32,740 nt of DNA from Acidimicrobiaceae bacterium. Its GTDB lineage: Bacteria; Actinomycetota; Acidimicrobiia; Acidimicrobiales; Ilumatobacteraceae. The translations under genes and the position numbers were made by a program. The notes under the pieces are model-generated. The model was not told the DNA's origin and did no database searches. It saw nothing but the letters and a program-made list of their open reading frames with translations. This document shows, one piece after another, positions 9,863 through 27,796 of the stretch. Each line of letters begins with the position of its first letter. The first letter of the stretch is position 1. The stretch spans positions 1 to 32,740 of the forward strand of contig CANLAH010000008.1 of assembly GCA_947488685.1 (NCBI GenBank), read 5' to 3'.

Positions 9863-10234
9863 TTAGTCAGATGACGTACTTGGTTTTGAAGTACTCGGTG
9901 CTGGTGTAGTTGGTTTTGAAGTACTCGGTGCTGGCGTTGGCGCAGCAGTGCCTGAATCAGATTTGGTCGGTTCAGATTTTGTTGTCTCGGATTTACCTGA
10001 CTCAGTAGACGGCGTGTTTCCGGGGGGTGTCGTGGACGACGCGCTCTTTGAACTATCGGTCTTATAGAAGCCACCACCCTTAAATGTGATTCCGACTGGA
10101 GTGAAAACCTTCTTGACGGGACGCAGAGAACCATCGCTTGGATGAGGTGCTTGGGTGAGGGGGTCCTCGGTGAAAGCCTGGTATACCTCGATGGTTTCGC
10201 CAGAATCAATGAATTTATACACGTAGGTAGGCAA
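9863..10234 (-). CDS. FmdB/Ruc-like protein without zinc-ribbon cysteines
   Basis: 123 residues. Residues 1-60 follow the FmdB-family layout seen in actinobacteria: an N-terminal PTYVYKF strand, a QAFTEDPLT segment, then VKKVFTPVGITFKGGGFYKTDS. The remaining 60 residues are a Ser/Thr/Pro/Lys-rich, presumably disordered tail ending in a tenfold-residue duplication. FmdB proteins normally carry a CxxC...CxxC zinc ribbon, and the mycobacterial homologue Ruc (Rv0991c) uses it as a redox-sensitive chaperone switch. Here the whole protein contains no cysteine: the expected positions read FIDSG and PHPSDG. The start is a TTG preceded by GGAG; longer upstream reading gives no plausible extension. It is divergent from galU, as the mycobacterial homologue is. 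Confidence 0.75.
   Translation of the reverse strand: MPTYVYKFIDSGETIEVYQAFTEDPLTQAPHPSDGSLRPVKKVFTPVGITFKGGGFYKTDSSKSASSTTPPGNTPSTESGKSETTKSEPTKSDSGTAAPTPAPSTSKPTTPAPSTSKPSTSSD
9881..9934. repeat. 30-base tandem duplication in the FmdB-like tail
   Basis: The segment TGGTTTTGAAGTACTCGGTG is followed by a second copy 30 bases later (starts 9881 and 9911). It encodes two copies of a ten-residue APSTSKP-type unit at the protein's C-terminus. The near identity suggests a recent slippage duplication. Confidence 0.8.
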
Positions 10235-10284
10235 GAGAGGTCTCCGTAGATTCTTGGGGGTACAGGGGTTAAATCGTATCCGAG

Positions 10285-10298: not shown

Positions 10299-11165
10299 GT
10301 GAAAGCTCGTTTTGCCGTAATTCCAGCGGCTGGCAAGGGGACTCGGTTTTTACCCGTCACCAAGGCTGTGCCTAAGGAGCTTTTGCCAATTATTGATGTG
10401 CCGGCATTACAGCTTGTGATGGATGAAGCCATTGCCGGAGGCGCTGAACACATTGTCTTGGTGTCAAGTCAGGCAAAGCCAGGTATCGAGGCGTACGTGC
10501 GCCCAGACGCTGAAATTGTGCAACGAGTTCGGGCAAGTGGACGAGAAGACCTTGCTGATCGATTGGCACGTATCGGATCTGATGTGCAAGTCAGCGTGGT
10601 GTACCAAGACGAACCACGAGGTCTCGGACATGCGGTGGGTTGCGCGCGCAGTGTTGTAGCAGATGAACCATTCGCAGTGTTGTTGCCCGACGAGGTCATG
10701 GGAGATGCGCGATTGATTACACAATTGTCACAGTCTGTGCATGACACCGGAGTGAGTGCCGTCGGACTCATGCGAGTGCCGCGAGATCAAGTGAGTGCGT
10801 ACGGAGTAATTACACCGCGTGAAGGTGATTCCGGACCAGGACCATTTGGCATTATTGACGTTGTCGAAAAACCGCGCGAGCAAGACGCACCGAGCAACTT
10901 AATTATTATCGGTCGCTATGTATTGACGCCTGATGTATTTGATCATCTAGATGCACTTGTGCCAAGCGCCAACGGAGAACTGCAATTGACCGACGCGTTG
11001 CGTGAACAAGCCATGTTGTCTCCGTTGACCGGAATCATGAACAAGAGTGCGCGATACGACACCGGAACACCTCAGGGTTGGTTGACCGCCGTGATTGATA
11101 TCGCACTTCAGCGTGGCGATGTCGGTCCTGCACTCGAAGTATGGCTGCGAGAGCGCTTGTCCTGA
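10299..11165 (+). CDS. galU: UTP-glucose-1-phosphate uridylyltransferase
   Basis: 288 residues with this start. GalU makes UDP-glucose from UTP and glucose-1-phosphate for cell-surface polysaccharides and glycolipids. The nucleotide-binding loop is VIPAAGKGTRFLP, directly followed by TKAVPKELLPIIDVPALQ. The later EPRGLGHAV and VEKPREQDAP segments are also typical. A further 15 codons are open upstream, but they match no family sequence and precede the TAAGGT promoter element. galU followed by moeA is conserved in actinobacteria; here a minus-strand gene lies between them. Confidence 0.94.
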   Translation: MKARFAVIPAAGKGTRFLPVTKAVPKELLPIIDVPALQLVMDEAIAGGAEHIVLVSSQAKPGIEAYVRPDAEIVQRVRASGREDLADRLARIGSDVQVSVVYQDEPRGLGHAVGCARSVVADEPFAVLLPDEVMGDARLITQLSQSVHDTGVSAVGLMRVPRDQVSAYGVITPREGDSGPGPFGIIDVVEKPREQDAPSNLIIIGRYVLTPDVFDHLDALVPSANGELQLTDALREQAMLSPLTGIMNKSARYDTGTPQGWLTAVIDIALQRGDVGPALEVWLRERLS

Positions 11166-11732
11166 TTAGGAATTGTGAGCAATGCGCCGGTACGCATTTG
11201 GTTCGTCGATCACAAAACCGAACTCATCCACTGTGACATCTACGTTTGTATTTTGCACGAGAGATGTGTAGTTCCACGTGTCGTGCCCAGTGCGGGTGTA
11301 GCGATGCGGATGAGTGACCACGCCGAGAGTGTCGACATCAATAGCCATGACCGGTAAATCAATTGTGTGGCCAATATGTAACGGCGTGCGATGAATAATG
11401 ATGCTGTTCGTAAATGGTGAGCCCGCAATGTCAATATCAATACACCCGTCAAGGTCTGGGCGGTGCGCCCCATTGATTTCTCCCCATCGGCCATGAGTGT
11501 CGGTGCCAAGCCACAGGTCTGGCTCGTCCAAGTCTCGAAACAACAGCACCTGTTGCACCACCCATAGAGCAGACAACCGCAGCACCAAGACTGCATTGTC
11601 CTGCTCTAGCGTGGTCTCTGCGGTCCAGGCCTCGTTTTCCCAACGCAGTTTGACAGTGCTCGCCGCTCGATGATCCCATGTGCTCCATGCGGCATGGTGG
11701 CCGCTGGCGGGGAGCGCGTGGTAATTGGACAT
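11166..11732 (-). CDS. Putative glycolipid-binding protein (PA1994/DUF1089 family)
   Basis: 188 residues matching the PA1994-like glycolipid-binding family. The central LDGCIDIDIAGSPFTNSII segment corresponds to the conserved LDGCxDVDLxxTPFTNTLPI block. The segments HRYTRTGHDTWNY and VDEFGFVIDEPNAYRRI correspond to the family's conserved C-terminal half. The fold resembles lipoprotein-localisation factors, but the protein has no signal peptide and should be cytoplasmic. Function is unknown in the family. Its stop codon abuts that of galU (convergent), and its 5' end faces moeA. A role near UDP-sugar metabolism is only suggested by position. Confidence 0.75.
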   Translation of the reverse strand: MSNYHALPASGHHAAWSTWDHRAASTVKLRWENEAWTAETTLEQDNAVLVLRLSALWVVQQVLLFRDLDEPDLWLGTDTHGRWGEINGAHRPDLDGCIDIDIAGSPFTNSIIIHRTPLHIGHTIDLPVMAIDVDTLGVVTHPHRYTRTGHDTWNYTSLVQNTNVDVTVDEFGFVIDEPNAYRRIAHNS

Positions 11733-11788
11733 CGCTCTAGCCTGTCACTTTTGATGGCCCAGTCCTGTTGTCTTGCTATGTCTGGCGG

Positions 11789-11794
11789 TACCGT
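11789..11794 (+). promoter_or_regulatory. -10 element of moeA
   Basis: TACCGT, 7 bases before ATG at 11802, with no Shine-Dalgarno sequence. Leaderless start predicted. Confidence 0.5.
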
Positions 11795-11801
11795 CCACAC
11801 C

Positions 11802-13055
11802 ATGATTTCTCTGCGCAACGCCAGCGACGCCGTGTGGCAGCAGATGTCTGTCTTGCCAGTTGTTGAGGTTTCGTTTACCGATGCGTATGGCTGTGTGTTG
11901 GCTTGTGATGTCATCGCCGCTGAGAACGTCCCGCCTTTTGCAAACACCGCCGTTGATGGTTATGCGGTTCGTGCCGCAGATGTTCAACATGTTCCGTGCG
12001 AGTTGCGTGTAATTGGAGAACTGGCAGCAGGTGCAGCACCAACAATTGCAGTGGGTGCAGGTGAGGCGATTCGCATCATGACGGGGGCACCTATCCCAAC
12101 GGGTGCAGATGCGATAGTGATGGTCGAAGACACAGAGCGCGTGGGAGCGTCACACGTGCGCATCTCGGCGTCTGTGCCCAGTGGTGCGGCGATTCGTGCA
12201 GCAGGATCTGACGTGACGGCTGGAGACCGAGTGTTTGTTGCAGGCACTGTGATCAATGCTGTGGCAGTTGGCGTGTTGTCAAGTGTTAATGCCCGAACAG
12301 TGCAGGTGTATCGCCGTGCCGTTGTCGGAGTTTTGTCAACAGGGGACGAACTCGTTGATGACGGATCAGTTCTAAAGATGGGACAGATTCGCGAGAGCAA
12401 TCGCACGATGCTTGTGCGCATGGTGCAAGAAGCCGGAGCAACAGCAGTTGATCTTGGCATTATTAAAGATGATGAAGAGTTGCTTGAACACACATTGCGC
12501 GATGCTGCGAGTCGAGTTGATGCAATCGTCACGAGTGGCGGTGTCAGCATGGGTGACTATGACGTCGTAAAGATTGTGTTGTCGCGCATTGCCAATATGG
12601 AGTGGATGCAGATTGCGATGAAGCCTGCCAAACCTTTTGCATTTGGTGTATTAACGGACAACGGTCGCTCTGTTCCGGTTTTTGGTTTACCTGGTAACCC
12701 TGTGTCGTCCATGGTGAGTTTTGAGTTATTGGCGCGACCGGCGCTACGCATGATGTGCGGCCACGGGACAGGCGCACACCGCCAAAGAGTGCGAGTGGTC
12801 GTAGACGAGGCAATCAGTCGCAAGCGCGACTCCAAGGTGCATTTTGATCGAGTATTTGCTCAGTGGGGCCTAGACGGCAGAGTTCATGTGTCGCGCAGTG
12901 GGGCGCAGGGAAGCCACCAATTGGCGGCTTCATCGATGGCAAATGCTTTGCTTGAGATACCAGATGGTGACGGCATAGCCGAAGGCCAAGACGCATGGGC
13001 ATTACTGATTGGACCAGTGTTGGCGTCTGCGTCTAACGATGATGCGAGTGTCTAG
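11802..13055 (+). CDS. moeA: Molybdopterin molybdenumtransferase MoeA / gephyrin-like Glp
   Basis: 417 residues. MoeA inserts molybdate into adenylylated molybdopterin. Family features are NTAVDGYAVRAAD (the active-site DGYA near residue 50), GVLSTGDELVDDG, SGGVSMGDYDVVK and MKPAKPFAFG, followed by VFGLPGNPVSSMVSFELL. The C-terminal domain is complete. The true start is the ATG 7 bases after TACCGT; the open frame extends 44 codons upstream but is not family-like. In corynebacteria a MoeA paralogue called Glp binds FtsZ and is encoded near galU and a membrane receptor, GlpR. This gene sits in a comparable neighbourhood, so it could serve cofactor synthesis, division, or both. Sequence alone does not decide. 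Confidence 0.93.
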   Translation: MISLRNASDAVWQQMSVLPVVEVSFTDAYGCVLACDVIAAENVPPFANTAVDGYAVRAADVQHVPCELRVIGELAAGAAPTIAVGAGEAIRIMTGAPIPTGADAIVMVEDTERVGASHVRISASVPSGAAIRAAGSDVTAGDRVFVAGTVINAVAVGVLSSVNARTVQVYRRAVVGVLSTGDELVDDGSVLKMGQIRESNRTMLVRMVQEAGATAVDLGIIKDDEELLEHTLRDAASRVDAIVTSGGVSMGDYDVVKIVLSRIANMEWMQIAMKPAKPFAFGVLTDNGRSVPVFGLPGNPVSSMVSFELLARPALRMMCGHGTGAHRQRVRVVVDEAISRKRDSKVHFDRVFAQWGLDGRVHVSRSGAQGSHQLAASSMANALLEIPDGDGIAEGQDAWALLIGPVLASASNDDASV

Positions 13056-13058
13056 GCT
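13053..13058 (+). promoter_or_regulatory. -10 element of moaA
   Basis: TAGGCT overlaps the moeA stop codon and stands 6 bases before GTG at 13065. It would give moaA an independent leaderless transcript besides read-through from moeA. Confidence 0.45.
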
Positions 13059-13064
13059 GGCTTT

Positions 13065-14084
13065 GTGGAATTAGTTGACCCTTTTGGGCGAACCGTGCGC
13101 GACTTGCGAATCTCGGTCACTGACCGTTGCAATTTTCGCTGCACGTATTGCATGCCAGCAGAAGGAATGGTCTGGTTAGATCGCAGCGAGATTCTGAGTT
13201 TTGAAGAGATCGAACGAGTCGCTCGAATTTGTGTTGAGCATTTTGAAGTCGACAGTTTGCGCCTTACTGGCGGAGAACCAACCGTTCGGGCGCATCTCAC
13301 GGTACTGATTGACAAATTGTCCAAACTGCGAGTACCGACAACAGCATCTTCTGAGTTTGCCGGTAAACAGCCTGATATCGCGCTCACCACAAATGCATCA
13401 ACACTGCGCAACATTGCCTACGAACTCAAAGCGGCCGGCCTCAGTCGTATCAATGTCAGCCTTGACTCATTGCATCGCGAACGATTCGAACAAATGACAC
13501 GACGAGACGAATTGGAAAATGTGCTCGAAGGTATCAAGGTCGCCCAAGACGCCGGATTCTCACCTGTCAAACTGAACGCCGTTATCGAACGCGGAATGAA
13601 TGACGACGAGATCGTATCTCTGGCCGCTTTTGGTCGCGACACAGGAGTAGAAGTGCGATTCATCGAGTTCATGCCACTCGACGCAAGTGAAGAATGGGGC
13701 ATGAAAAAAGTTGTTAGTCAAGACGAGATCGTGGCTGCAATCAGCGCGGTGTATCCACTCGAACAGATGTCAGCACGTGGTGCTGCTCCCGCAGACAGAT
13801 GGCGTTATCTTGATGGCCGCGGAGTTGTCGGCGTCATCCCCTCCGTGACAAAGCCGTTCTGTGCTGATTGTGACCGTGTGCGCATTACTGCTGATGGTCA
13901 GTTTCGAACATGTCTATTTTCGACGACTGAGTTTGATGTTCGCGCCGTTTTGCGCAACGGCGGAACCGACGACGATATCGCTACGTTGATTCGTCATGCC
14001 GTCGGAACAAAGTGGGCGGGACATCAGATAGGTCACGTGAACTTCATCCGTCCAAAGCGCAGTATGAGCCAAATCGGCGGATAA
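13065..14084 (+). CDS. moaA: GTP 3',8-cyclase (molybdenum cofactor biosynthesis protein A)
   Basis: 339 residues. A radical-SAM enzyme with two iron-sulfur clusters that turns GTP into 3',8-cyclo-GTP, the first step of molybdopterin synthesis. The N-terminal SAM cluster motif is RCNFRCTYCMP (Cys 22, 26, 29). The C-terminal cluster motif is FCADCDRVRITADGQFRTC, near residues 265-283. The protein ends in the conserved Gly-Gly needed for activity. The start is a GTG that opens the usual N-terminal sequence (DPFGRTVRDLRISVTDRC). It follows moeA by 9 bases and precedes a crotonase gene by 2 bases. Confidence 0.96.
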   Translation: MELVDPFGRTVRDLRISVTDRCNFRCTYCMPAEGMVWLDRSEILSFEEIERVARICVEHFEVDSLRLTGGEPTVRAHLTVLIDKLSKLRVPTTASSEFAGKQPDIALTTNASTLRNIAYELKAAGLSRINVSLDSLHRERFEQMTRRDELENVLEGIKVAQDAGFSPVKLNAVIERGMNDDEIVSLAAFGRDTGVEVRFIEFMPLDASEEWGMKKVVSQDEIVAAISAVYPLEQMSARGAAPADRWRYLDGRGVVGVIPSVTKPFCADCDRVRITADGQFRTCLFSTTEFDVRAVLRNGGTDDDIATLIRHAVGTKWAGHQIGHVNFIRPKRSMSQIGG

Positions 14085-14086
14085 CG

Positions 14087-14881
14087 ATGTCAAGCAATCT
14101 CGAATTACATGTCGTCGCGGGTGTTGCGACGCTCCTGCTCAACAGACCTGCAAAGCGAAACTCCTTTACATTTGAGATGTGGCAAGAATTCGGCGATGTG
14201 CTGACCGAACTTGCCGACCAATCCGACGTGCGCGTATTGGTCGTGCGTGGTGCTGGTGAACACTTCTGTGCGGGCGCCGATATCTCAGGACTATCGGGTG
14301 GCATAGGTGGCGATTATGGCAAAGTAAATTGGCGAGCCGAAGAAGCATTAGCAAATTTTCCAGTACCAACGATTGCCTATATTCAAGGAAACTGTGTCGG
14401 CGGAGGAGTCAGCATCGCAACTGCCTGCGATATTCGGATGTGCGACATGACGGCCCAGTTCGGAATCACGCCGGCAAAATTAGGCATCGTGTATCCATCA
14501 AATGCGCTCACGCGAATTGTGCAGTTGGTCGGACCATCCAATACCAAGCACTTGATGTTTACTGCCGAACTCATTGATGCCATGGCCGCAAGCCGTATTG
14601 GTCTCGTTGATGAAGTGCATGACTCTGCCTCGATGGTGACTCGACTCGACGAATTAGTTGCCCAATTGTTGGAGCGCTCTCAACTCACACAAGTGGCGAC
14701 GAAGCAAATGATCGCCCAGATCATGGCTCATGGTTCAGTTCTGGAATCAACGCAAAGGGCATGGGAAGAACAAGTCAATACATCTGGAGAATTAGCCCAG
14801 GGCCTCGAAGCCTTTGCTGCCCGTCGTGCACCCATTTTCCCGTGGCGTCGGTCAATCTCGGCAAGTACGCTTAAGTCATGA
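14087..14881 (+). CDS. Enoyl-CoA hydratase/isomerase family protein
   Basis: 264 residues of the crotonase fold. The oxyanion-hole segment GEHFCAGADISGL and the second glycine NH in GNCVGGGVSIATACDIR are present, so acyl-CoA thioester binding is likely. The two catalytic glutamates of true enoyl-CoA hydratases are not conserved: positions read GGGVS and TPAKLG, where GGGxE and xPExxLG are expected. It may therefore be an isomerase, hydrolase or decarboxylase. The start is the ATG 2 bases after the moaA stop, preceded by GGCGG. Its stop overlaps moaC as ATGA. A fatty-acid-type gene inside the molybdenum-cofactor group is unusual, and a functional link is not apparent. Confidence 0.85.
   Translation: MSSNLELHVVAGVATLLLNRPAKRNSFTFEMWQEFGDVLTELADQSDVRVLVVRGAGEHFCAGADISGLSGGIGGDYGKVNWRAEEALANFPVPTIAYIQGNCVGGGVSIATACDIRMCDMTAQFGITPAKLGIVYPSNALTRIVQLVGPSNTKHLMFTAELIDAMAASRIGLVDEVHDSASMVTRLDELVAQLLERSQLTQVATKQMIAQIMAHGSVLESTQRAWEEQVNTSGELAQGLEAFAARRAPIFPWRRSISASTLKS
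14866..14871 (+). promoter_or_regulatory. -10 element of moaC
   Basis: TACGCT lies inside the end of the crotonase gene, 6 bases before the moaC ATG at 14878. It predicts an internal leaderless promoter. Confidence 0.45.
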
Positions 14882-15366
14882 CGGACAACACGTTTAATCA
14901 TCTTGACCAAAACGGTCACGCCCACATGGTGGATGTGACTCCTAAACAGTCAACCCATCGTCGAGCAGTAGCGCGCTGCAAAGTGATGATGCGTCCTGCC
15001 ACTGTGCAGGCAGTTGCCAATCGCGAAATGAAAAAGGGTGACGTTTTGGCGGTGGCTCGGGTGGCAGGGATTCAGGCTGCCAAGCGCACGAGCGACATGA
15101 TTCCTCTTTGCCATCCACTCATGATTAGCGCTGTGTCTGTGAACTTTGAAATGGGCGACGATTTTATTGCCATTGAAGCATGTGTCGAAGCTGTCGATCG
15201 AACAGGTGTTGAAATGGAGGCACTGCATGCGTGTTCAACGGCAGCGTTAACGGTCTATGACATGTGCAAGAGCGCTGACCGCGAAATGACGATTGCGGAT
15301 TTGACCTTGTGGGAGAAATCGGGTGGTCGTTCGGGCAATTATCAGCGTGTGGGCAACATTTCTTGA
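14878..15366 (+). CDS. moaC: Cyclic pyranopterin monophosphate synthase
   Basis: 162 residues, complete. MoaC converts the MoaA product, 3',8-cyclo-GTP, to cyclic pyranopterin monophosphate. Conserved segments are IPLCHPLMIS (active-site His), GVEMEALHACSTAALTVYDM and the C-terminal KSGGRSGNY. The first 20 residues (FNHLDQNGHAHMVDVTPKQ) match the family start. The ATG overlaps the crotonase stop by four bases and also has its own promoter hexamer. moaB, moaD and moaE are not in this window and must lie elsewhere. Confidence 0.96.
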   Translation: MTDNTFNHLDQNGHAHMVDVTPKQSTHRRAVARCKVMMRPATVQAVANREMKKGDVLAVARVAGIQAAKRTSDMIPLCHPLMISAVSVNFEMGDDFIAIEACVEAVDRTGVEMEALHACSTAALTVYDMCKSADREMTIADLTLWEKSGGRSGNYQRVGNIS

Positions 15367-15410
15367 TTTGGTCAGTTGCAGGACAAAACCCTTACAGTCA
15401 TTAGGATTTC

Positions 15411-15431
15411 CTATCCACAGGCTGTGGAAAA
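15411..15431. promoter_or_regulatory. Inverted pair of DnaA-box-like sites
   Basis: CTATCCACA followed 3 bases later by TGTGGAAAA, the reverse complement of TTTTCCACA. Each half differs from the TTATCCACA consensus by one base. The core TCCACAG-G-CTGTGGA is a perfect inverted repeat. It lies in the 129-base gap between moaC and the SepX/GlpR-like gene. It could bind DnaA or a dimeric regulator. Confidence 0.45.
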
Positions 15432-15477
15432 GTATTGCTCTATGGGTGGGGGTTGTCGCCTTTTGAGGCTTTTTATT

Positions 15478-15483
15478 GTAGGG
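15478..15483 (+). promoter_or_regulatory. Possible -10 element of the SepX/GlpR-like gene
   Basis: TAGGGT, 11 bases before ATG at 15496. The stretch between contains AAGGGGG, which could act as a short Shine-Dalgarno sequence, so this gene is not clearly leaderless. Confidence 0.35.
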
Positions 15484-15495
15484 TAAGGGGGTCGT

Positions 15496-16002
15496 ATGAG
15501 CATGTTAATTCTCTTGATTGTGGGCGCTGCCTGGTTGGCTGTCCTTTTGCCACCGTTGTTTCGTTCACGTATTGATTCCCGTCCTGTGTCTTCAGTGTCG
15601 GATTTTCGTCGCCAGTTATACACCTTGCAGCGCACCCAGGCGCCGATGCGCGCTCAAGCTCCACTGCGAGCAATGAGTCGTCCATTGGCCCCAACGCCTG
15701 CACATCTGCGGCCAATCATGCGCGCAGGACACGCACCCCAGCGCCTCTCGGATTCACCTGAAATTGCCTACATGTCGGCCGGAGCGATCATTCGACGCCG
15801 TCGCACAAATGTGCTCTACGCGCTGATTGGATGCAATGGAGTGTCGCTGTTTTTGGCCTTCACAACCGGCTCTACGTCGATGATTTGGTTTTTTGCGGTG
15901 GCAGTTGTGTCACTCGTGGGCTATTGCTACATGCTGGTGCAGATCCGTTCTGCAGCCGCGGTGCGTCGTTATCAAGACTCTCGCCGCCATCGCGCAGCCT
16001 GA
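15496..16002 (+). CDS. Three-helix membrane protein, SepX/GlpR-like
   Basis: 168 residues. One helix at residues about 3-22 (ILLIVGAAWLAVLLPPLF) is followed by a basic SRIDSRPVSSVSDFRRQLYTL segment and a Pro/Ala/Arg-rich linker to about residue 95. Two further helices lie at about 105-150, and the tail is Arg-rich. An N-terminal helix ending in a Pro-rich boundary, a Ser-x-x-x-Phe-Arg segment and a paired C-terminal hairpin are what I recall of actinobacterial SepX (Streptomyces) and GlpR (Corynebacterium). The location downstream of galU, moeA and moaC also fits. Those proteins sit at the septum and connect the division machinery to Glp or related partners. The assignment rests on layout and context and is moderate; this protein is shorter than the streptomycete ones. 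Confidence 0.55.
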   Translation: MSMLILLIVGAAWLAVLLPPLFRSRIDSRPVSSVSDFRRQLYTLQRTQAPMRAQAPLRAMSRPLAPTPAHLRPIMRAGHAPQRLSDSPEIAYMSAGAIIRRRRTNVLYALIGCNGVSLFLAFTTGSTSMIWFFAVAVVSLVGYCYMLVQIRSAAAVRRYQDSRRHRAA

Positions 16003-16076
16003 TTCACCCAAAGAGTTTCCAGCCCAATAATGCTGGCCAGTGCGTACCCTGACCAACGCCCCTGCAAACAATGCAT

Positions 16077-16082
16077 TACTGT
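16077..16082 (+). promoter_or_regulatory. -10 element of the DUF1566 lipoprotein gene
   Basis: TACTGT, 6 bases before ATG at 16089. It selects this start, which places the lipobox cysteine at residue 29. Confidence 0.4.
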
Positions 16083-16088
16083 GAGCGT

Positions 16089-16886
16089 ATGGTTCAGATG
16101 ATGAGGCTCAAATCAAGACAGAGCAAAACATTGCTCGGTGCCGCGATAGTGAGCATGCTCGTAATAGTTGGTTGCGGATCGAAGTCATCGTCACCAGACA
16201 CCACTCGAGTTAAGAACTCAGCGTTCACCACCACTACGGCTGTAGATGACGGTACTCAGACCACCACAACAGTTGCCGACGACGGTACGCAAACCACCAC
16301 GACAGTTGCCGACGATGGCAACGAGACCACCACGACAGTTGCCGACGATGGCAACGAGACCACCACAACTCTGGCACCAATGGCGTACGCAATCGGAGAC
16401 AAGGGTCCTGCTGGCGGCGTGATCTTTTTTGCTGATACAGAAGACGAGTTTGCGACATTTGACTTTTTAGAAGTGGCTCCTGCCGGATGGTCTGGTGAAA
16501 AATCTGACCCCACAGCGTCATGGTGTGATGATTTAGGAAAAGAACTCACGGGAGCGGGCGCAACTGAGATCGGAACCGGGCAGAGCAATACAAAAGTCCT
16601 TGAACAATCTGGACCCACATGTGGGGCAAAGAGTGCTGGCCAACTTGCGCTGGCCTACAACGGAGGAAAAAAAGACGATTGGTTCTTGCCTTCAAAAGGA
16701 GAGCTAGATCTGTTGTATGCAAATGCCAAGTTGCTCAAAGTGAGTGAACTCAATGATGCGGTCTACTGGAGTTCGTCGTCAAGCAACGAATTTCGGGCAT
16801 GGGGTCAGTTGTTTACCTCTGGCATCGCCGGAACCAACTTTAGAACGTCTTCGTTTGCGGTGCGACCTATTCGCTCTTTCAAGTAG
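16089..16886 (+). CDS. Lipoprotein with Thr-rich repeat stalk and DUF1566 domain
   Basis: 265 residues. A type II signal peptide ends in the lipobox VIVGC with the lipidated Cys at residue 29. A low-complexity stalk follows, with four 11-residue DDG(T/N)(Q/E)TTTT repeats at residues 51-94. The rest (about 98-265) is a DUF1566/Lcl-type domain: GPAGGVIFFAD, then IGTGQSNTKVL, DDWFLPSKGELDLLY, AVYWSSSSSNEF, and a final SFAVRPIRSF. That domain resembles the C-type-lectin-like formylglycine-enzyme fold and is common in surface proteins; ligands are unknown. The protein should be anchored in the cytoplasmic membrane facing outward, with the repeats acting as a spacer through the wall. Confidence 0.8.
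   Translation: MVQMMRLKSRQSKTLLGAAIVSMLVIVGCGSKSSSPDTTRVKNSAFTTTTAVDDGTQTTTTVADDGTQTTTTVADDGNETTTTVADDGNETTTTLAPMAYAIGDKGPAGGVIFFADTEDEFATFDFLEVAPAGWSGEKSDPTASWCDDLGKELTGAGATEIGTGQSNTKVLEQSGPTCGAKSAGQLALAYNGGKKDDWFLPSKGELDLLYANAKLLKVSELNDAVYWSSSSSNEFRAWGQLFTSGIAGTNFRTSSFAVRPIRSFK
16239..16370. repeat. Four 33-base tandem repeats (Thr-rich stalk)
   Basis: Four in-frame units of 33 bases encode (V/A)(A/V)DDG(T/N)(Q/E)TTTT. Units 1-2 carry Thr-Gln and units 3-4 carry Asn-Glu, so the array probably grew by duplication of pairs. Copy number is likely variable between strains. Confidence 0.85.
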
Positions 16887-16958: not shown

Positions 16959-17031
16959 GGGGCTGTAGCTCAGTTGGCAGAGCGCTACGTTCGCAATGTA
17001 GAGGTCAGGGGTTCAATTCCCCTCAGCTCCA
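16959..17031 (+). tRNA. tRNA-Ala (anticodon CGC)
   Basis: A 73-base cloverleaf can be folded by hand. The acceptor stem GGGGCTG pairs with CAGCTCC, the D-stem is GCTC/GAGC, and the anticodon stem is CTACG/TGTAG with loop TTCGCAA. The T-arm is AGGGG-TTCAATT-CCCCT, with discriminator A at 17031. Bases 16992-16994 are the anticodon CGC, which reads the alanine codon GCG. The 3' CCA is not encoded and must be added. An acyl-CoA synthetase gene starts 28 bases downstream. Confidence 0.96.
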
Positions 17032-17043
17032 CTCGTTACACAC

Positions 17044-26396: not shown

Positions 26397-27305
26397 TCAC
26401 GTGTCTAATAACCCTGCAGCAATTCCGTCGAGCAGATTGTGTGTTGAGACAATAAGACTGTCGAGACGAAGACGACGCATGACGCCCACTAATACACAGC
26501 ATCCCCCCACAATAATGTCCGCTCGAGCGGCAGGAAGACCTGGGTTGTGAACTCGGTCTGAAAGACGTTCTGTCGCAAGGGTACGAAACACATCCTCTGC
26601 GGCGTCTCGGGTGAGCTCGAATCCATGAAGTCGCGTGGCGTCAAAATCAATGAGCCCAAGTTCGACTGCTGCGATTGTGACGATGCTGCCAGCGGTTCCG
26701 ACCACTCTCTGGGATGTCAATAACTGTGGGATCTGACGCGTTACTTCTTCGAGGTCATCTTGCACGGCGCCAATGGCGTTGATGAGTTCTTCAGGACGGG
26801 GAGGATCATGCAGAATCTCTTTTTCGGTCACCGCCACCGCTCCGTGATTGATACTGGCAGTGTGTTCGGGCGTTCGTTGTCCAAGCGTGAACTCAGTGCT
26901 TCCGCCTCCGATGTCAATGACAAGCGTCGAACCATCGATATCGGGCAAGCCGACAAGTGCACCAACAAACGAATATGAGGCCTCTTGATGACCATCAAGG
27001 ACAGTGAGATTGAGACCAGTTTGAGTATGGACTCGCGAGACAAAGTCGGCGATGTTGGTGGCTTGGCGACACGCCCGAGTGCCAACAAGCATGATGGTGT
27101 CTGCGCGATGTTCTTGGGCGATCTGGACGTGAGATGAAATGGTCTCAATTGTGCGAGACATCGCCTCGTCACTCAATGTCTGTGTGATGCCGAGACCTTG
27201 TCCTAGTCGAGTGGCGCTCACTATGCGAGCAATCTCTGCGTGTTGAGAGGTGACTAACAGATTGGTGGATTGAGTTCCAATGTCAATGATGGCTACGGTG
27301 CTCAT
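26397..27305 (-). CDS. ppx: Ppx/GppA-family exopolyphosphatase
   Basis: 302 residues, the short actinobacterial type. The actin-like ATPase fold is marked by the phosphate-1 loop AIIDIGTQSTNLL, LVGTRACRQATN, and the phosphate-2 loop LVIDIGGGSTEFTLG. Enzymes of this family cleave terminal phosphate from polyphosphate or pppGpp; which one applies here is not decidable. The start overlaps the DUF501 stop as ATGA, so the two are translationally coupled. The short form lacks the C-terminal HD-like domain of enterobacterial Ppx/GppA. Confidence 0.9.
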   Translation of the reverse strand: MSTVAIIDIGTQSTNLLVTSQHAEIARIVSATRLGQGLGITQTLSDEAMSRTIETISSHVQIAQEHRADTIMLVGTRACRQATNIADFVSRVHTQTGLNLTVLDGHQEASYSFVGALVGLPDIDGSTLVIDIGGGSTEFTLGQRTPEHTASINHGAVAVTEKEILHDPPRPEELINAIGAVQDDLEEVTRQIPQLLTSQRVVGTAGSIVTIAAVELGLIDFDATRLHGFELTRDAAEDVFRTLATERLSDRVHNPGLPAARADIIVGGCCVLVGVMRRLRLDSLIVSTHNLLDGIAAGLLDT

Positions 27306-27796
27306 GTCGGATTGACGCGTTCTGTCAACACGAGACCTTGAGCATTGAATTGCTGAGCGGTCCATGCACCGACCGCATCGTCGCCGCCGGCAAGCCAATA
27401 TGCAAAGTGCGCATGCAAACACTTCACGCCTGTGCGTGTGCCGCCGACTCCGCCGCTAGGTCGAGGTCCGTCATAGTGAGACGGTATGTCGGCATCGCGT
27501 TCGCGTTCGTAGCGTGCATGAATCAGCGCGATTGCTTCGAGGCCCAATTCATTCTCGACAGCATCTATTGTCCCGGCGGACTCGAGGCGACTGACAGCGG
27601 TGACTTCTTGTAGTCCGAGTAACCAATATAAAGTTGGCATCGGAGTTCGGTCATGCAAAAGTGGCGCGTTGCGCAAGACAACAGGCGTTCCATCGCGGTG
27701 ACGAACAGCCACAGTAAAATCACCTTGAGGAACGCGGCCAAGCAATTTTGCTACGAGTTCATGATCTCTTGCTGACGGATTGCCGCGCCCAGACAT
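27302..27796 (-). CDS. DUF501 family protein
   Basis: 164 residues. Characteristic segments are DRTPMPTLYWLLGLQE, a VSRLESAG segment, and GGVGGTRTGVKCLHAHFA followed by AYWLAGGDDAVGAW, which I recognise from DUF501. The family is almost confined to actinobacteria and usually lies between the division gene ftsB/divIC and ppx; its function is unknown. Conserved Cys and His in KCLHAH suggest a metal or active site. Here ppx follows as usual, but the upstream neighbour is coxG, 8 bases away. Confidence 0.88.
   Translation of the reverse strand: MSGRGNPSARDHELVAKLLGRVPQGDFTVAVRHRDGTPVVLRNAPLLHDRTPMPTLYWLLGLQEVTAVSRLESAGTIDAVENELGLEAIALIHARYERERDADIPSHYDGPRPSGGVGGTRTGVKCLHAHFAYWLAGGDDAVGAWTAQQFNAQGLVLTERVNPT

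Follow-up and report, generated by a model that had tools for sequence, protein, structure and literature searches.

Two related division systems of Actinomycetota are the closest described counterparts of the locus reported here. In Corynebacterium glutamicum, Glp (Cgl0883; PDB 8bve, 8bvf) has the fold of MoeA, the molybdenum insertase (Mo-insertase) of cofactor synthesis, binds FtsZ and has GlpR (Cgl0885) as its membrane receptor; the streptomycete relative of GlpR is SepX (vnz_14865 in Streptomyces venezuelae). According to sections of two published accounts, Glp is a duplicate of MoeA that has probably lost catalysis and that co-occurs with GlpR (PMC10522489, PMC11733289). We analyzed a stretch of 32,740 nucleotides (hereafter the window) from a lake bacterium recorded as Acidimicrobiaceae bacterium, order Acidimicrobiales, family Ilumatobacteraceae (assembly GCA_947488685.1, contig CANLAH010000008.1, positions 1 to 32,740), in which galU, moeA, moaA and moaC are followed by a gene for a membrane protein of 168 amino acids (aa; Table 1). 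A preliminary description of this DNA had proposed that the 168-aa protein may be the SepX/GlpR equivalent and that, in this case, the neighboring moeA may act in division. The explanation that we consider probable is that the protein is a SepX/GlpR with a role at the Z-ring but with no Glp, that moeA encodes a Mo-insertase, and that the locus predates the duplication that gave rise to Glp.

A divergent SepX/GlpR homologue in the molybdenum-cofactor locus

The 168-aa open reading frame (ORF) behaves as a real gene under purifying selection. Compared with a 97%-identical relative, nonsynonymous (dN) and synonymous (dS) divergence are 0.014 and 0.26, and with two more distant relatives they are 0.089 and 1.2 and 0.103 and 1.48. 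The proposed helix layout, one N-terminal helix, a basic segment and a C-terminal helix pair, agrees with hydropathy and with an AlphaFold model (mean predicted local distance difference test score, pLDDT, 73.6), both of which predict three membrane helices. The model consists of a membrane helix (2-27), an amphipathic helix (31-47) and a helix pair (95-124 and 127-167), with a flexible basic loop before the pair. The inter-helix segment (residues 23-98) has a computed isoelectric point (pI) of 11.9 and the short C-terminal tail one of 11.8; judging from their basic residues, these two regions would be cytoplasmic. This layout fits the three-helix topology of SepX/GlpR as far as it is set out in sections of two papers (PMC10522489, PMC8748795). 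Three predicted membrane helices, and two further regions taken as cytoplasmic, are likewise features of GlpR and its mycobacteria-like relatives (NF045516, SepX_GlpR_1); the labels mycobacteria-like, Streptomyces-like and actinomycete-type, as used here, are inferred from the size of the genomes and from their matches.

The four SepX/GlpR models of NCBIfam are the top four matches of the 168-aa protein, and they cover most of it: SepX_GlpR_4 (NF050101) matches residues 2-165 (E 2.7e-8, 34.1 bits) and SepX_GlpR_2 (NF050099) residues 2-160 (E 3.6e-8). Like SepX of S. venezuelae, all members of an alignment of 29 sequences (29/29) match NF050099 at E <= 0.01. The alignment comprises the window protein and 28 relatives from among the best-scoring ones in the order; the partial sequence L027 was excluded, and the window protein replaces its own copy (L003). 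Profile-profile comparison (hhalign) with nine actinomycete-type SepX/GlpR sequences gave E 1.6e-10 over 46 columns. A Pfam search with the 168-aa protein gave no match, phmmer gave none among solved structures, and a fold search with the model gave none at E <= 0.001, which excludes nothing.

The low scores (34 bits) and the short hhalign alignment could also be explained if the 168-aa product were an unrelated small membrane protein, matched weakly because of a common helix layout and arginine-rich linkers. Some of the 29 sequences do weakly match unrelated models (CcmI in 4/29, FlhA in one, an anti-sigma factor in one). However, established-type members score similarly on SepX/GlpR models that are not their own: two mycobacteria-like GlpR proteins reach 303 and 329 bits on their own model but 47-60 and 39-67 bits, respectively, on the remaining three, and the values for a Streptomyces-like SepX are 239 and 23-56, so that each of the three proteins passes one model and fails three. 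The cut-offs are thus lineage-specific, and the 34 bits of the window protein are what distant true members give. The leading position of all four SepX/GlpR models also argues against an unrelated protein, as does the place beside moaC, which is shared beyond the order and independent of score. We therefore think an unrelated protein decidedly unlikely. The curated NCBIfam cut-off of 110 bits is a naming rule set per lineage and no biological feature; as 34.1 bits lies under it, we name the protein a divergent homologue and not an NCBIfam equivalog. By profile, predicted topology and synteny, it is a divergent homologue of SepX/GlpR, compact in form and belonging to the acIV/Ilumatobacteraceae lineage, in line with the preliminary description.

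No convincing rival pair of GlpR/SepX and Glp was found elsewhere in the window's own genome, a 1.94 Mb draft that is 82.9% complete. A second match to NF050099 in that genome (19.8 bits, in a 449-aa frame) was regarded as a chance similarity of helices.

Compared with the described proteins, the homologue is small. GlpR has about 340 aa, and the 168-aa protein has a short tail and no partner Glp. In C. glutamicum GlpR, the first intrinsically disordered region is acidic and the second basic, as given in part of PMC10522489, whereas both the loop and the tail are basic here. The SepX proteins of the large-genome, Streptomyces-like group f83 (n = 4) have 418-528 aa, including long stretches of low complexity and a W[DE]PVPVPLPTY segment that the window protein lacks.

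The C-termini of these proteins often resemble LLRRSAN in the order and RAANE or RAAGQ in actinomycete-type SepX/GlpR. A terminal R[SAT][AG] pattern, picked after looking at the sequences, is found in 16/24 sequences of the order, 3/10 from genomes scored as lacking MoeA and 8/9 actinomycete-type sequences (shuffled tails would give 0.45, 0.14 and 0.24, respectively). It occurs in one of four sequences of the window's family, namely as the RAA end of the window protein itself, and in 0/18 elsewhere; the family has a short tail, with an AA end in 12 of 14 sequences. Examples of the common R-[SAT]-[AG] C-terminus are L089:4584-5090, L066:1737-3098 and L079:1018-2061. This C-terminus is a possible docking tail.

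The neighboring moeA resembles an ordinary Mo-insertase

From its sequence, the moeA of the window looks like an ordinary Mo-insertase of the cofactor pathway and not like Glp, although it shares the MoeA fold and a gene position next to galU with the latter. Twelve of 13 positions checked are identical to E. coli MoeA (D59, T100, R137, D142, E188, D228, D259, K279, P298, P301, R350 and S371); only K275Q differs, and Gln stands at this position in 31/31 aligned sequences of the order. Nine of the sites (D59, T100, R137, D142, E188, D228, K279, R350 and S371) are named as mutants in PDB titles; the remaining four are D259, K275, P298 and P301. The catalytic aspartates are kept in 31/31 MoeA sequences of the order. 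In contrast, D228, D259 and K279, which the window MoeA keeps, correspond to G, A and H in Glp of C. glutamicum. At positions 338, 343, 360, 361, 362, 369, 370 and 414, Glp reads V-L-L-M-R-Y-L-F and the window V-D-A-Q-W-V-H-L. Among the Glp residues that contact FtsZ, L360, M361 and L370 are found in 0/31 sequences of the order and L343, R362 and F414 in one each; Y369 is found in seven, the window not among them; V338 is shared by 21, and the window is one of these.

In a tree of 72 MoeA sequences (LG+G4, rooted on E. coli), the window MoeA groups with its own family (ultrafast bootstrap, UFB, 100) inside a clade (UFB 100) of all sequences of the order together with L126, from another order of the same class; three further members of the class fall outside this clade. 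The window lies outside a clade (UFB 98) in which Glp of C. glutamicum is found together with the galU-linked MoeA of f83 and the second MoeA copy from the mycobacteria-like group f88. Further paralogues (the second f83 copies, L077 and L083) are placed elsewhere, on a long and poorly placed branch. The nearest named relatives of the window MoeA come from acIV-labelled assemblies (97% identical) and from Ilumatobacteraceae of Lake Baikal (86%). The predicted monomer (pLDDT 91.6) superposes with root-mean-square deviations (rmsd) of 1.9-2.1 Å on Cnx1E, 2.1-3.3 Å on gephyrin E, 2.5-4.5 Å on E. coli MoeA chains and 5.3-5.7 Å on Glp.

A single MoeA_N match is found in the window's own genome, within its 82.9% completeness; the count of moeA paralogues thus came to one, as in most of the order (see below). 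The same genome has three matches to MoCoBD_1, a cofactor domain of the xanthine dehydrogenase family, and three to PF00384, and a working MoeA is therefore presumably needed. Glp was rejected as the identity of this moeA: the protein lies outside the Glp-holding clade, keeps its active-site residues and mostly lacks the FtsZ contacts of Glp. A role of moeA in division, as put forward in the preliminary description, is also disfavored by its being the sole MoeA found in a genome with molybdoenzymes and by the retention of SepX in genomes without detected MoeA.

Two galU-linked MoeA proteins, L073:3380-4783 (genome G178) and L066:5137-6516 (G140), exceed the NCBIfam Glp cut-off with 579 and 569 bits. 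Both keep D228 and D259, have Q for K279 and lack M361 and Y369; that of G178 is the only MoeA found there. The Glp name may thus be over-applied.

Gene order in and beyond the order

In our sample of 118 genomes of the order, the window's own included, the profile of the 29-sequence alignment detects the SepX homologue in 107, and MoeA_N and MoaC are matched in 103 and 114, respectively. Every SepX-bearing genome also has a MoaC match (107/107). Distances were tallied for the best SepX match per genome only: moaC lies at most 2 kb from SepX in 90/107, and in the 95 genomes with both MoeA and SepX the two are on one contig in 73 and at most 10 kb apart in 71. A single MoeA copy over the cut-off is present in 101 of the 103 MoeA-bearing genomes, with two in G081 and G097; this count leaves out second MoeA_N matches below the cut-off (G006, G009 and G031) and reads two matches at contig ends in G109 as one gene.

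The usual locus of the order, as seen in fetched loci that were partly picked for carrying both genes, runs fmdB-like (on the opposite strand), galU, moeA, moaA, moaC and SepX. Outside the order, among loci that are not actinomycete-type, moeA, moaC and SepX occur in that sequence in 18 of 20 loci (L126-L145), most of which were picked because the SepX profile search matched there; moaA is inside the run only in L126. The arrangement galU-moeA-moaC-SepX is shared with f83 (4/4 loci). In f88, moaC is absent between galU-glp and glpR. With GlpR, the window gene has in common a position downstream of galU and a moeA-type gene, together with weak profile similarity. Because moaC is found between moeA and SepX in f83 and in other classes too, the interposition of moaC is common and we rejected it as special to this genome. 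The preliminary description had contrasted the locus with those of Corynebacterium and the streptomycetes for having both moaA and moaC in between; this does not hold for moaC, but moaA between moeA and SepX was seen mainly in this order. An ancestral arrangement with moaC in between would fit the sample. Loci of other taxa (L194-L242) were left out of the analysis.

Eight genomes were scored as having MoeA and lacking SepX, and four of these loci were fetched. G082 and G071 have a weak SepX match (2e-6 and 7e-5), the contig of G114 ends within moaC, and G032 has neither moaC nor SepX near moeA. Among related loci (L163-L193), 11 of 31 have no SepX match; in L175 and L180 more than 5 kb is present downstream of moeA without SepX, which may be elsewhere or absent. 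The SepX of one locus titled Bifidobacterium breve (L184) is almost the same as in L183 (titled Candidatus Microthrix), and the label of L184 looks wrong.

SepX is retained in genomes without detected MoeA

Twelve genomes were scored as having SepX and lacking MoeA. Two were dropped after checks (the contig of G063 ends within moeA, and that of G070 starts just upstream of moaA), leaving ten, eight of which are at least 90% complete. In one of the ten (G001, 84% complete; L112, 3902-5770), galU directly abuts moaA, followed by moaC and SepX, and moeA seems to be cleanly missing from the locus. In seven others, a lone moaC lies directly beside the fmdB-like gene (L243-L249), and no galU, moeA or moaA was found in these fetched stretches. 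In G033 and G090, only part of moaC is present, at the end of a contig.

Nine of the ten genomes were searched for molybdoenzyme domains. Seven have no MoCoBD_1 match; G045 gives 25 bits (27.9 with neighbors; cut-off 27) and G090 20.8, whereas the main matches of the window's family reach 179-257. PF00384 is matched in seven of the nine by frames of 882-1053 aa, which we take to be complex I subunit G. In G008 the matching frames have 732 and 1299 aa, and the shorter one may encode a true molybdoenzyme; no PF00384 match was obtained for G090. From these searches, MoeA seems to have been lost together with molybdoenzymes in most of these lineages, with SepX retained. The retention of SepX in ten genomes without detected MoeA speaks against MoeA as a required partner of SepX in the order. 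On this evidence the SepX homologue does not seem to need MoeA, which could still have a dispensable second role.

Such a role is at the center of the explanation closest to the preliminary description, in which the single MoeA is bifunctional, making cofactor and also binding the 168-aa receptor and FtsZ, and would represent an undivided ancestor of MoeA and Glp. Consistent with this, MoeA and SepX are within 10 kb in 71/95 genomes, the FtsZ of the window's genome ends in the canonical peptide DDFDVPSFLK, and the window MoeA scores higher on the NCBIfam model Glp_gephyrin (352.8 bits) than on MoeA_actino (334.7), though E. coli-type PRK10680 is highest (362.3) and no MoeA/Glp model is passed. 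Hinge prolines are common in the order (at least two in hinge 1 in 23/31, at least one in hinge 2 in 26/31) and for that reason are weak evidence that cannot tell the groups apart; in the window MoeA, hinge 1 contains a single proline and hinge 2 lacks them. Against a bifunctional MoeA are the absence of most Glp contacts in the order, V338 excepted, and the ten genomes that keep SepX. Furthermore, co-expression of cofactor genes accounts for the neighborhood, since moaA and moaC are there too. Overall, we regard a bifunctional MoeA as unlikely.

Alternatively, MoaC and not MoeA might be the cofactor protein tied to SepX in the order, repurposed or moonlighting in parallel to Glp. If true, the coupling of MoaC and SepX would mean that a molybdenum-cofactor enzyme was recruited a second time, independently. 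The presence of MoaC in all SepX-bearing genomes is in keeping with this, as is its persistence at the ancestral spot in the seven lone-moaC genomes after moeA, moaA and galU have gone from there. The substrate-binding motif PLCH is altered in 5/7 of these MoaC proteins and His77 in 2/7, compared with retention of PLCH in 31/31 other MoaC of the order (that of G001 included) and of His77 in 59/59 other MoaC. However, moaC is not beside SepX in six of the seven, these genomes may still make cofactor for a further enzyme family (moaA was searched only in the fetched stretch), and the catalytic residues K51, E112, E114, D128, K131 and K147 are kept in 7/7. PLCH also varies in at least 5/27 MoaC outside the order, in cofactor loci; genomes without MoaC are only 4/118, with completeness of 63-90%; and the MoaC of the window is ordinary. 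A tie between MoaC and SepX thus appears very improbable.

A receptor that may predate Glp

Under our preferred explanation, a SepX/GlpR working without Glp beside an ordinary Mo-insertase, the 168-aa protein would span the membrane at the site of division with three helices, and the amphipathic helix (31-47) would face the cytoplasm together with the basic loop and the basic tail. Like SepX of Streptomyces, the protein would help to stabilize the Z-ring or connect the ring with membrane partners, and would do so in the absence of Glp, while the neighboring moeA would make cofactor. The link to division would follow from homology. The locus galU-moeA-(moaA)-moaC-SepX probably predates the duplication from which Glp arose, and Glp was therefore probably recruited, in the Corynebacterium lineage, from a moeA duplicate to a receptor already next door. 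The sequence comparisons suggest that the SepX/GlpR receptor probably came first and Glp later. Because the receptor occurs with a single MoeA, or none detected, across most sampled genomes of the order, this succession is testable, and a galU-linked MoeA should not automatically be named a division protein.

Several points weigh against this explanation. The score of the 168-aa protein is below the curated cut-off, and the profile-profile match extends only over the N-terminal helix and the adjoining downstream segment. The first region of C. glutamicum GlpR is long and acidic and the loop here is short and basic, and the LLRRSAN-type tail of most members of the order is missing from the window's family. 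The MoeA model has the same Z-score (37.3) to E. coli MoeA (1g8l) and to Glp, with rmsd of 4.4 and 5.7 Å. One control genome (G009) has MoeA yet no MoCoBD_1 match, and the MoCoBD_1 test alone therefore cannot track MoeA in every genome. Finally, no localization or binding data were found for this order. A literature search that covered few subscription journals returned no paper joining SepX and Acidimicrobi, a distribution that may stand in supplementary tables, and none joining Acidimicrobi, MoeA and cell division.

Gene content of the locus and its surroundings

The genes named in the preliminary description, galU, moeA, moaA, moaC and the 168-aa ORF, are all present in the order given there, and two more were identified among them, the Glycolipid_bind and enoyl-CoA hydratase genes (Table 1).

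Table 1. Features of the galU-SepX locus in the window
Feature	Position	Strand	Basis and remarks
galU, UTP-glucose-1-phosphate uridylyltransferase	10299-11165	+	TIGR01099 252 bits, below curated cut-off 326.8
Glycolipid_bind (PF06475) gene, 188 aa	11166-11732	-	94 bits; antisense between galU and moeA
moeA, canonical molybdopterin molybdotransferase	about 11802-13055	+	Pfam MoeA_N, MoCF_biosynth, MoeA_C
moaA, GTP 3',8-cyclase	13065-14084	+	TIGR02666 367.6 bits, over cut-off
Enoyl-CoA hydratase family gene	14087-14881	+	PF00378 137.7 bits; between moaA and moaC
moaC, cyclic pyranopterin monophosphate synthase	14878-15366	+	TIGR00581 200 bits, over cut-off
168-aa SepX/GlpR homologue	15496-16002	+	NCBIfam profiles, hydropathy, AlphaFold model

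The left edge of the conserved locus is galU, whose position is kept in relatives. The start of moeA was picked by comparison with E. coli MoeA, and an upstream ATG exists at 11670. The Glycolipid_bind gene, which is probably outside the system, occupies the identical slot in near relatives (L163-L165); its placement there comes from a single-sequence search, and the matches of an iterated search, contaminated with frames antisense to moeA, were ignored. The enoyl-CoA hydratase gene is in the slot between moaA and moaC in near relatives only (L163-L165 and L168, not L172, L174 or L176).

Divergent from galU, a small gene at 9863-10237 has a weak FmdB zinc-ribbon match, and its slot is kept across several classes. 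A Ppx/GppA phosphatase gene at 26400-27422 resembles FtsA weakly (24.3 bits, below cut-off) and was not accepted as a division gene. Downstream of the SepX homologue, the gene at 16071-16886, just before a tRNA-Ala(CGC) gene at 16959-17032, probably encodes a lipoprotein; its product contains VADDGxxTTTT repeats and matches Lcl_C weakly, below cut-off.

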